64,000 nt of DNA from an uncultured Desulfobacterium sp. (GCA_900258555.1 LT984854.1:546195-610194), one strand, 5' to 3'. Shown: positions 7,408-61,006, counted from the stretch's first letter. The notes: generated by a model not told the origin, from the sequence alone. Made by a program: numbers and translations.

Positions 7408-7438
7408 CGACATTTCGAACTCCCCTCCGGTAGGTATC
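7408..7438 (+). promoter_or_regulatory. Two-block phage motif, copy 1
   Basis: CGAC at 7408-7411, 17 bases, then GGTAGGTATC at 7429-7438. This is the first of eight copies with identical spacing at cluster boundaries of element 2. It precedes the recombinase cassette (7646 onward). A strong hairpin, GCCGGACC with GGTCCGGC, follows within 10-30 bases, placing it in the 5' leader if the motif is a promoter. Confidence 0.7.
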
Positions 7439-7477
7439 TGCCGAAAGCCGGACCAGTGGGTCCGGCGCAAGCGGATT

Positions 7478-7531
7478 ACCAGACAGCGGAATCGGCCGTG
7501 AGAACGGAGACCGTTGTGGGTGCCGACGACA
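7478..7531 (+). repeat. Non-coding repeat A (pair with 14330-14381)
   Basis: This stretch and 14330-14381 share ACCAGACA, GGCCG, GCGGAG/ACGGAG and GTTGTGGGTG in the same order, with only a 2-base length difference. Both lie in gene-free intervals shortly upstream of genes. It may be a shared leader RNA or a regulator binding region. Confidence 0.6.
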
Positions 7532-7645
7532 TCGCCCTCAGGCGGTGTCGGGCGGGCTCCAACGGCCTTCTCGATGACCGGCCTATCCAGTCCCGCGGCA
7601 TCCATGACGGAAACCTTCCGCGGCCTCCCGCAAAAGGAGGACCGG

Positions 7646-7867
7646 ATGCCGGCCAACGAACACGTCCCAATCTCTCTCGACGAGGTGATATCGGAGATCG
7701 CTACGATCCTTGCCCGGGGTTACATGCGCCATCGAAACGGACGCCGAATCGCCCCAGATTCCGGCAGTGGGGCAGAGCATGTGGCGCAAGTTGAAGAATC
7801 TGAGGCGTTTACGGAGAAACGCCTTGATGTTTCGGGCCACCGAAGCCTTCATTCATTCACGAGTTAA
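7646..7867 (+). CDS. Small hypothetical protein of the recombinase cassette
   Basis: 73 aa from the ATG at 7646, with a strong AAAAGGAGG site 5 bases upstream. It begins MPANEHVPISLDEVISEIAT and has no recognised domain. It is the first gene after motif copy 1 and lies upstream of the DUF2924 gene and the large serine recombinase, a neighbourhood where small unknown proteins are common in mobile cassettes. The C-terminal third is Ser/His-rich and poorly structured. Confidence 0.6.
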   Translation: MPANEHVPISLDEVISEIATILARGYMRHRNGRRIAPDSGSGAEHVAQVEESEAFTEKRLDVSGHRSLHSFTS

Positions 7868-7934
7868 CGCCCTGAGATTGCGGTGCGGACGAACCGCCCG
7901 CCGGGGCGAAGCCCATGAACCAAGGAGGTTTCGG

Positions 7935-8471
7935 ATGGAAGCAACAACGTATCAAGAGGTCCAGGGGCTCTTCCGGATGACCGTCGGAGAACTCCGAGAC
8001 AAGTACCTCGATGTCTTCGGAGAAGAGACCCGCTCCTACCACAAGGAGTTTCTGCGCAAGCGAATCGCCTGGCGTATTCAGGCCCTGGCGGAGGGTGATC
8101 TTTCGGAGCGGGCCCGGCGCAGAGCCGAGGAACTGGCCAACGACGCCGACCTGAGAACGCGGGCTCCGCGTGATCCGGTCTCCTCGGGTTCCGCCGAGGT
8201 CAAGTCGAGAACATCGACCGGCCGCATATCCCCGTCGCGCGACCCGAGGTTGCCCCTGCCGGGCACGCTGCTATCCCGCGAGTTCCAAGGCCGCGACATT
8301 GTGGTCAAGGTCCTCGACAACGGCTTCGAGTTCGACGGCCGACGCTACAAGTCCCTCTCCGCCATCGCCCAGGAGGTCACCGGGAGCAAGTGGAACGGGT
8401 TCCTCTTCTTCGGTATCGCCGATGCCGCGGCCAAGGGCGGGAGCCGCAAACCCGAGAGGAGGAACGAATGA
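7935..8471 (+). CDS. DUF2924-type protein of the recombinase cassette
   Basis: 178 aa from the ATG at 7935 with an AAGGAGG site. The first part (MTVGELRDKYLDVFGEE, then LRKRIAWRIQALAEG) and the last part (LDNGFEFDGRRYKSLSAIAQ, then VTGSKWNGFLFFGI) match the DUF2924 pattern, a protein typically encoded immediately before a large serine recombinase. The C-terminal RAMA-like module is thought to bind DNA. Its stop overlaps the recombinase start (ATGA at 8468-8471), so the two are coupled. It probably assists recombination, but its exact role is unknown in the family. Confidence 0.85.
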   Translation: MEATTYQEVQGLFRMTVGELRDKYLDVFGEETRSYHKEFLRKRIAWRIQALAEGDLSERARRRAEELANDADLRTRAPRDPVSSGSAEVKSRTSTGRISPSRDPRLPLPGTLLSREFQGRDIVVKVLDNGFEFDGRRYKSLSAIAQEVTGSKWNGFLFFGIADAAAKGGSRKPERRNE

Positions 8472-59872: not shown

Positions 59873-59879
59873 GGAACGC

Positions 59880-60191
59880 ATGAAACGGGTATTCATTTGC
59901 AGCCGGTACGCCGGGGACGTTCCCCGGAACACGGCGACCGCCGAACGGCTCTGCCGGAAGGCGGTGGAGCGCGGTTGCGCACCCTTCGCGCCGCATCTTC
60001 TCTACACGCGCTTTCTCGATGACGGGAAGACCTCCGAGCGCGAGGCAGGCATCGCCTGCGGCCTGACGTTCATGGAGATCTGCGACGAGGTCTGGGTGTT
60101 CACCGGCGAAGGCCTTTCCGACGGCATGCGCCGGGAAGTCGATCATGCCCGACGTCTGGGCAAGCCCGTGGTCGAACTGGAGGTGCTGTAG
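59880..60191 (+). CDS. DUF4406-like nucleoside deoxyribosyltransferase-fold protein
   Basis: 103 aa from the ATG at 59880. MKRVFICSRYAGDVPRNTAT, CDEVWVFTGEGLSDGMRREV and DHARRLGKPVVEL match small proteins of the nucleoside 2-deoxyribosyltransferase-like fold. It may cleave or sense nucleotides. It is unusual between the tape measure and baseplate genes and looks like a small accessory gene. Confidence 0.75.
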   Translation: MKRVFICSRYAGDVPRNTATAERLCRKAVERGCAPFAPHLLYTRFLDDGKTSEREAGIACGLTFMEICDEVWVFTGEGLSDGMRREVDHARRLGKPVVELEVL

Positions 60192-60193
60192 CC

Positions 60194-60664
60194 GTGGCTT
60201 GGGACCGGAAAGAGATCACCGCGTACTTGGTGGACGTGGATACGGGCGACTACCTCGATTTCCAGTACAACCCGAACGACATCGTCGACGAGAAGAGCAC
60301 GGCCTATGCGGCCATCAAGATTCCGGGCATGAGCCATCCCCGCTACCAGTACGTGGCCGGCGAGCCGCGCAAGATCGGCTTCAAGCTGGTCTTCTTCAAA
60401 GGGTCCGTGAAGGAGTCGGTGGACTGGCTGCGCTCTCTGCTCTATCCCGAACACGCCGGAACCATGCTCCAGAACGCCCCGCACCGGGTGATCTTCATGT
60501 TCGGAGACCTTTATCCGGGCGTGCTTTGCGTCGTCCGCCAGGTGAAGGCCCGGTTCTTCCACATGTTCGACCGGGACAACCTGCTGCCTCAGCATGCCGA
60601 AGTGGACGTGATGCTCGAGGAATACATCGATCAGTCCGTGGACTATTCGGAGGTGCGCGGATGA
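60194..60664 (+). CDS. Baseplate/tube-initiator-type protein
   Basis: 156 aa, GTG start at 60194, 2 bases after the previous stop. DVDTGDYLDFQYNPNDIVDE and YVAGEPRKIGFKLVFFKGSV resemble the contractile-injection tube/baseplate initiator family ('F-x-(F/Y)-N-P' segment). It probably links the tube to the baseplate hub. The next gene overlaps its stop. Confidence 0.75.
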   Translation: MAWDRKEITAYLVDVDTGDYLDFQYNPNDIVDEKSTAYAAIKIPGMSHPRYQYVAGEPRKIGFKLVFFKGSVKESVDWLRSLLYPEHAGTMLQNAPHRVIFMFGDLYPGVLCVVRQVKARFFHMFDRDNLLPQHAEVDVMLEEYIDQSVDYSEVRG

Positions 60665-60951
60665 TCGGACGGCGATCCAGATACGCGGCATCCATTCTCT
60701 ACACATCGGGCGACGGGGATTTTCTGGGCACGCGTCTTCCGACCGAGGACAAGCCGCGCCCCGACGACCGGTTTCACACGGTGATCGAGGGGGACCGGGT
60801 CGATTTGCTCGCCCATCGCTATCTGGGACAGGCCGATCTCTGGTGGATCATCTGCGACTACAACGACATTTTCTTCCCCCTGGACCTGACGCCGGGGACC
60901 ATCCTGCGCATCCCATCGGCGGAACACGTCAGCATGCGGCTTCTGGACTGA
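60661..60951 (+). CDS. Tail protein X-like (LysM-type) protein
   Basis: 96 aa from the ATG at 60661 (ATGA overlap). VDLLAHRYLGQADLWWIICD, then YNDIFFPLDLTPGTILRIPS, is the LysM-like core of gpX/gp53-type baseplate proteins. It helps assemble the tail tip. Confidence 0.85.
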   Translation: MIGRRSRYAASILYTSGDGDFLGTRLPTEDKPRPDDRFHTVIEGDRVDLLAHRYLGQADLWWIICDYNDIFFPLDLTPGTILRIPSAEHVSMRLLD

Positions 60952-60975
60952 GTCCCCGGACTCGTCCATCTATCC

Positions 60976-61006
60976 CGACACCTCGCGCCCCGCGCCGGTA
61001 AGTATC
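60976..61006 (+). promoter_or_regulatory. Two-block phage motif, copy 8
   Basis: CGAC at 60976-60979, 17 bases, GGTAAGTATC at 60997-61006 (one change). It lies before the hub gene. A CCGCC-CTTCA-GGCGG hairpin (about 61016-61030) follows. Confidence 0.68.

Follow-up and report, generated by a model that had tools for sequence, protein, structure and literature searches.

Repeated promoter-like sites and a putative ECF-like sigma factor in a prophage of an uncultured Desulfobacterium sp.

Introduction

What reads a short two-block sequence that recurs at the operon boundaries of a prophage? The question arises from a 64,000-nucleotide stretch of DNA from an uncultured Desulfobacterium sp. (GCA_900258555.1, LT984854.1:546195-610194), here called the window. 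An earlier note had described eight copies of CCGAC followed, 17 bases later, by a second conserved block, and had suggested a phage promoter unlike those of sigma-70. That proposal has held up: the site is confined mostly to prophages, it stands before the same orthologous operons, its spacer is exactly 17 bases, and the prophage carries a sigma factor gene, the partner absent from the note. We consider it very probable that RNA polymerase bearing the prophage's extracytoplasmic function (ECF)-like sigma factor, encoded at 14482-15069, uses the ten sites of the prophage as promoters. The sites, their spacing, orientation, conservation and co-occurrence with the sigma gene, the family of the sigma factor, and the sequences of an upstream operator and sigma-70 promoter were seen directly.

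Results

The sites lie at operon boundaries

The copies within the window are as follows.
7408..7438, plus strand: copy 1, with TCGAC; tRNA-Asn on one side, integration genes (7935-10512) on the other
15075..15105, plus strand: copy 2; 5 bp past the stop codon of the sigma gene, ahead of 15207 and the genes for replication
24228..24258, plus strand: copy 3; before 24294-25414 (small helix-turn-helix (HTH) gene operon)
25389..25419, plus strand: copy 4; before a possible small terminase gene, overlapping the 3' end of 25121-25414
32562..32592, plus strand: copy 5, with GGTAGATAAC; before the portal gene
44973..45003, plus strand: copy 6; ahead of the methyltransferase/head fusion and major head genes
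51892..51922, plus strand: copy 7; ahead of the genes for tail sheath and tube
60976..61006, plus strand: copy 8, with GGTAAGTATC; before 61050 (baseplate region)

All eight positions (7408, 15075, 24228, 25389, 32562, 44973, 51892 and 60976) and their plus-strand orientation were recovered as described. CGAC is constant throughout, extended to CCGAC in seven copies and to TCGAC at 7408, and it is separated from GGTA by exactly 17 bases in every copy. The second block reads GGTAGGTATC at five of the eight sites and GGTAGGTATT, GGTAGATAAC and GGTAAGTATC at 15075, 32562 and 60976, respectively; CTCC precedes it at seven sites, with GCGCC at 60976. The claim that each copy lies directly upstream of a gene cluster stands for operon boundaries at all eight and is loose at 7408, where the first confident open reading frame (ORF) begins about 500 nt downstream.

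The set of eight understates the total. The prophage is about 87 kb long and extends beyond the window; its structural genes reach about 82 kb and apparent cargo about 94 kb. It holds ten copies, the ninth and tenth at window-equivalent positions 67985 and 94063. The tenth is weaker (GGTAAATATC). It corresponds to G000:C1:640257 (L022 10257) and precedes, as judged by eye, a Vsr-like nuclease ORF and a GHKL-ATPase-like ORF; this right-end cargo may also be under the phage sigma factor.

The pattern CGAC-N17-GGTARRTA matched eight times on both strands of the 64 kb and not once in 100 dinucleotide shuffles. A position weight matrix built from the eight sites scored them at 35.6-43.5 bits and the rest of the window below 11; as the sites were also the training set, the gap to background is the informative part. 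Boundary-compatible DNA makes up about 7.4% of the prophage, giving P of about 1e-9 for all eight window sites falling there. All ten prophage sites lie in such DNA and none in a gene body, the site at 25389 overlapping the final 26 nt of the upstream gene 25121-25414.

The prophage encodes an ECF-like sigma factor

The gene proposed to encode the reader of these sites stands between two small genes.
14482..15069, plus strand: proposed to read the sites; ECF-like sigma factor of 195 aa (PHROG, Pfam, PDB profile, AlphaFold2, Foldseek)
13967..14299, plus strand: small gene of unfamiliar family upstream of the sigma gene; kept in every carrier examined, no PHROG hit
15207..15521, plus strand: small gene of unfamiliar family that follows copy 2; present in all carriers examined and without a match in PHROG or Pfam

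The sigma gene ends 5 bp before copy 2. Its product matched PHROG 1740 (E 7e-18) and PF04542, sigma-70 region 2 (25.0 bits, cutoff 24). A profile search against the PDB matched RpoE, SigH and SigE chains, while a single-sequence phmmer search of the same database gave no matches. The AlphaFold2 model consists of three sigma2 helices (residues 12-83), a low-confidence linker of about 44 residues and a four-helix sigma4 (128-188), and its best Foldseek matches were mostly ECF sigma factors. The hallmarks of this group (group IV) are sigma2 and sigma4 domains only, joined by a linker of fewer than 50 residues, a -35 AAC and a -10 CGT, a co-transcribed cognate anti-sigma and positive autoregulation (PMC8103513). 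The domain hallmark was found in the predicted protein. With a model of moderate confidence, the assignment is one of family level. We call the protein ECF-like and give it no named ECF group, since the boxes depart from the letters of that hallmark and no anti-sigma is known. The products of 13967-14299 and 15207-15521 are candidates for a co-factor or an anti-sigma.

CGAC (usually CCGAC) would serve as the -35 box, read by sigma region 4, and CGGTANGTA(T/A), 17 bases away, as the -10 box, read by region 2, with transcription predicted to start about 6-9 bases past GTA.

Sigma factor and sites are inherited together

Relatives of the sigma factor were sought by protein alone, with the motif unused. 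They were found in IMG/VR at 85-91% identity and later down to 41%, in metagenome-assembled genomes (MAGs) and Desulfosarcina cetonica at 85-99%, the sigma of D. cetonica JCM 12296 (L013) being 85% identical, and in the host's relatives at 50-87%; in the phylum at large, 11 of 395 genomes carried one, and none was found in the phages collection. Across these relatives (41-99%), a site and the sigma stop codon are no more than about 8 bp apart, except in two very distant homologues in G369. A contig with a poor gene call (L008) keeps the site at the same place, and L154 and L155 carry a variant. Sigma genes 98-99% identical to that of the window occur on MAG contigs labelled Acidobacteriota, Phycisphaerae, Ozemobacter and Anaerolinea (L008-L011); these are probably mis-binned phage contigs and not the true host range.

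Prophages with the sigma gene carry three to nine sites each (G015, G032, G099, G244, G251, G290, G351, G410 and G440). In whole-prophage comparisons, the sites precede orthologous replication, small HTH, terminase, portal, methyltransferase/head, tail and baseplate operons, and this pairing persists where the proteins are merely 40-80% identical and the spacers differ. All carriers share solely the trio of 13967, sigma and 15207 together with the integration genes. The pair of elements termed G099a shares with the window phage, at a recognisable level, the trio, the integration genes, in one of them 11442 and 12598, and cargo; its structural module differs, and the sites are nonetheless kept. 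At G099:C1 2838000-2903000 (L035, L036, L039, L040), two adjacent elements combine a type C sigma and three sites each with restriction-like cargo and a structural module that differs from the window phage's: the sigma module moves between phage types.

The most divergent sigma lineage (L154/L155, 41%) yielded two sites, CGTC/CGAC-N17-GGTA(T/A)GAAAC, both with an altered -10 (GGTANGAAAC), as expected if sigma factor and promoter co-evolve, two sites being few. In the type B prophage G099b, the integration genes are reversed and the site is flipped with them (2050646), which is the behaviour expected of a promoter.

Specificity and spacing across genomes

The whole 5.43-Mb host genome was examined by pattern searches. 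CGAC-N17-GGTAGG matched six times, always in the prophage, and CGAC-N17-GGTARGTA ten times, eight of them in the prophage and the other two without the CCGG context. The earlier note had expected hits only in this phage family; the confinement is not strict, as orphan tandem copies stand beside restriction genes, described below. Scatter over host genes, the outcome that the note had set against its own proposal, was not seen: in sigma-bearing genomes the sites cluster in prophages. Apart from the orphans, genomes without the sigma gene gave 0-4 matches, mostly 0-1, similar to a reversed-pattern control.

The spacing is equally strict beyond the window. When spacers of 12-22 were scanned in six prophage regions, 50 of the 52 matches had 17. 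Among IMG/VR stretches, at least 120 (156 sites) had a spacing of 17, against 13 with 18 and 10 with 16; a gene of the phage family was encoded on 100 of the 120 listed 17-spaced stretches and on 0 of the 23 with a spacing of 16 or 18. The boxes hold most of the information and the spacer averages about 0.4 bit per position, a contrast to be read with the boxes themselves having been used to find the sites. A small G/A/A conservation bump 7-9 nt past GTA was unforced by the search pattern and fits a promoter, since the start site is expected at that distance. The -10 letters also appear linked to the class of sigma factor (GGTAGGTATC in A, GGTAAGTAAC in B, GGTATGTAT in C). We set this aside as support: the mosaic prophage G032a combines a type B sigma with structural genes like those of type A, and its GGTAGATAT is a clean fit to neither.

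A phage sigma gene together with a shared, non-sigma-70 promoter at phage operons is the hallmark of a phage alternative-sigma regulon; both were found here, and the sites, as far as sequence comparison can tell, work like one.

Points against, and other possible readers

Several observations weigh against the assignment of the sites to the phage sigma factor. Pfam sigma region 4 falls under its cutoff in the 14482-15069 protein, and the structural model is of moderate confidence (predicted local distance difference test, pLDDT, 67) with a low whole-chain template-modelling (TM) score. The boxes of the sites, CGAC and CGGTANGTA, come near the canonical ECF letters (-35 AAC, -10 CGT; PMC8103513) without matching them. 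No site lies directly upstream of the sigma gene itself; read-through from copy 1 (7408) is possible, and the repressor-sigma operon has its own sigma-70 promoter. The genes at 13967 and 15207 track the sites as faithfully as sigma does. Finally, binding by the sigma factor, the start sites and the order of the switch are deduced from sequence.

The sites could instead bind another phage regulator that recruits host sigma-70 polymerase, such as the products of 13967 and 15207 or the following HTH protein.
25121..25414, plus strand: HTH protein with weak late-activator similarity (phrog_836, E 1.7e-5; HTH_23); rival reader

We regard this as improbable. The equal conservation of 13967 and 15207 with the sites speaks for it, as do the weak late-activator and HTH matches of 25121-25414. 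Yet a homologue of the latter was not detected in G032a or G099a, two carrier groups that have the sites, and the HTH protein was rejected as their reader. A spacing fixed at 17 bases and conservation resembling that of a -10 box are the geometry of a promoter, and sigma-70-type scans covering five sites found no such promoter at the three in 44.0-63.9 kb or the two in 7.1-15.3 kb. The scan of the former region gave 3 hits where 2.9 were expected; none coincided with a site, and a sigma-70-type promoter there was discarded. A Mu-type (Mor/C) activator regulon calls for an activator in all carriers and a sigma-70 -10 at the sites; the candidate activator, 25121-25414, went undetected in the two carrier groups above, and no such box turned up at the five scanned sites.

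It is more doubtful still that a host alternative sigma reads the sites and that the phage adopted a host regulon. A few genomes without a detected phage sigma do hold copies; in G240, G347 and G422, however, the sole genome matches are one tandem pair each, while genomes that do bear the sigma gene have their sites grouped in the prophage, and the site follows the phage sigma gene itself. We rejected a host-sigma regulon, as relatives show no scatter of sites.

Least probable of all is a role in DNA or as an RNA leader, in packaging, replication, recombination or processing, which would suit the uniform orientation in the prophage and the strong folding of some downstream leaders (15103-15167, z -5.3), yet strong folding is not at every site (24256-24300, z +0.8; an RNA leader element was rejected on this ground), the type B site at G099b 2050646 is on the opposite strand with the reversed integration genes, and the small ORF that follows orphan pairs has a ribosome-binding site. 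Other leaders more stable than shuffles were 45001-45075 (z -2.9), 7436-7500 (-2.7) and 61004-61050 (-2.9).

A putative switch upstream of the sigma gene

Three features stand at the head of the operon that includes the sigma gene.
10627..10655, plus strand: sigma-70 promoter TTGACC-17-TATAAT of the repressor-sigma operon; sole sigma-70-like hit in 7100-15300
10629..10648, no strand: perfect palindrome GACCTGA-N6-TCAGGTC, filling the spacer of the sigma-70 promoter; proposed repressor operator
10669..11427, plus strand: LexA-like repressor gene with S24 peptidase domain, given as the longest ORF (PF00717, E 8e-33; PF01726, E 6e-13)

The repressor gene lies 3' of the palindrome and promoter, and its start is probably at 10748 or 10810. 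One copy of the palindrome core ACCTGAN6TCAGGT is present in this genome, one in G015, one in G099 and two in G440, by their coordinates within the sigma prophages; G244 has one in the prophage and one elsewhere, and searches of G032 and G251 found none.

In the lysogen, the LexA-like repressor would sit on the palindrome over the 10627-10655 promoter and hold its own operon, including sigma, low. On induction the repressor would be inactivated, presumably by SOS cleavage through its S24 domain, and host sigma-70 would then make the phage sigma. This in turn would switch on about ten operons together, for integration/excision, replication, packaging, head, tail and baseplate.

Orphan sites beside restriction genes

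A separate arrangement, the orphan module, consists of tandem CGAC-N17-GGTAAGTAA sites about 70 bp apart before a conserved ORF of about 62 aa (M[DG]IN[DE]LFDGI...). Loci with one or two sites and this ORF are listed here.
L101 10275-10604; L102 191-511; L103 10096-10470; L104 10323-10817
L048 8004-8324; L050 ~3508-3767; L060-L062, L067, L069

A profile of the ORF matched 13 of 395 genomes at E 1e-3 or better, ten of them without a sigma hit, and the weakest matches lacked a recognisable site. In a 13-locus alignment the tandem sites are among the best-conserved intergenic blocks. Among the loci inspected, most have a small XRE regulator gene as the divergent neighbour, with HsdR or HsdM next in several. 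Viral contig L135 has a single site, adjoined (by eye) by a nucleotidyltransferase/HEPN-like pair, an XRE gene and a DNA methyltransferase. Some orphans are decayed, with spacer insertions in G041, G058 and G225 and an in-frame stop in one G032 ORF. In G056, G057 and G422 the module adjoins sequence resembling the transfer-messenger RNA gene or smpB (by eye).

The tandem sites could be trap promoters in defence loci, keyed to the phage sigma factor, a suggestion that we make tentatively and put at somewhat below even. The small ORF would be expressed only once an infecting phage had produced its sigma factor, and the product would then act in alarm, suicide or the regulation of restriction. 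Alternatively, the module may be a satellite, cargo descended from a prophage, or a gene by which phages counter restriction. If functional, the trap would be a natural phage-triggered defence promoter that senses a phage sigma at the level of transcription, and the orphans would allow one to ask directly whether hosts monitor the sigma factors of phages.

Other single orphans have near-identical spacers across genera: L059 3297, L057 245 and L058 303, all on the minus strand, and L063 724 and L064 10001. One type resembles window copy 1 and the other lies before an AAA-ATPase-like gene (by eye); these are possibly remnants of prophage ends.

Cargo and neighbouring genes

A tRNA-Asn gene at 7061-7136, just left of the prophage, is its likely attachment site. 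Two minus-strand segments interrupt the phage operons, both read by eye: an insert at 39365-44870 with porin, FeoB and iron-dependent regulator/FeoA-like genes, apparently iron-transport cargo, and, between terminase and portal, a pair at 30625-32399 resembling an AbiE-type toxin-antitoxin.

Discussion

With the sigma gene added, a repeated motif becomes a complete, testable circuit, in which a LexA-like repressor would govern a phage sigma and the sigma about ten promoters. The phage family is widespread in Desulfobacterota and metagenomes. As the sigma-promoter pair occurs on phages with unrelated structural modules, it would mark operons in metagenomic phages by sequence alone. In the open-access literature searched we found phage sigma factors in general and no described promoter or module of this kind.

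The orphans recall phage satellites (phage-inducible chromosomal islands, PICIs, and their relatives; PMC10111431) in having promoters outside the phage that a phage regulator could fire in trans. Unlike PICIs, the orphan module accompanies restriction operons and fronts one ORF of about 62 aa, with no capsid or packaging genes noticed alongside.

Xpf of the Bacillus subtilis prophage PBSX is a sigma2-sigma4, group IV protein that acts as a positive control factor (PMC10141391). The window sigma resembles it, by description and without a sequence comparison, as a small prophage-encoded sigma2-sigma4 protein tied to prophage induction. PBSX uses essentially one late operon; here, in another phylum, operons for integration, replication and the virion would be served by about ten dispersed CGAC-N17-CGGTANGTA promoters.

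The Mor/C promoters of Mu and the stoperators of mycobacteriophages are activator or repressor sites that work with sigma-70. They share with the prophage a repeated, oriented sequence at many operon boundaries; unlike them, the sites here have no sigma-70 -10 in the scanned region and co-occur with a sigma gene.

T4 gp55 and SPO1 gp28 are sigma factors of lytic phages that replace the host sigma and have their own promoter sequence. The likeness, again by description, is of a phage that directs polymerase to its own genes through a promoter sequence of its own. Unlike those lytic programmes, the one proposed here belongs to a temperate phage, with a different promoter and a LexA-like switch placed before the sigma factor.
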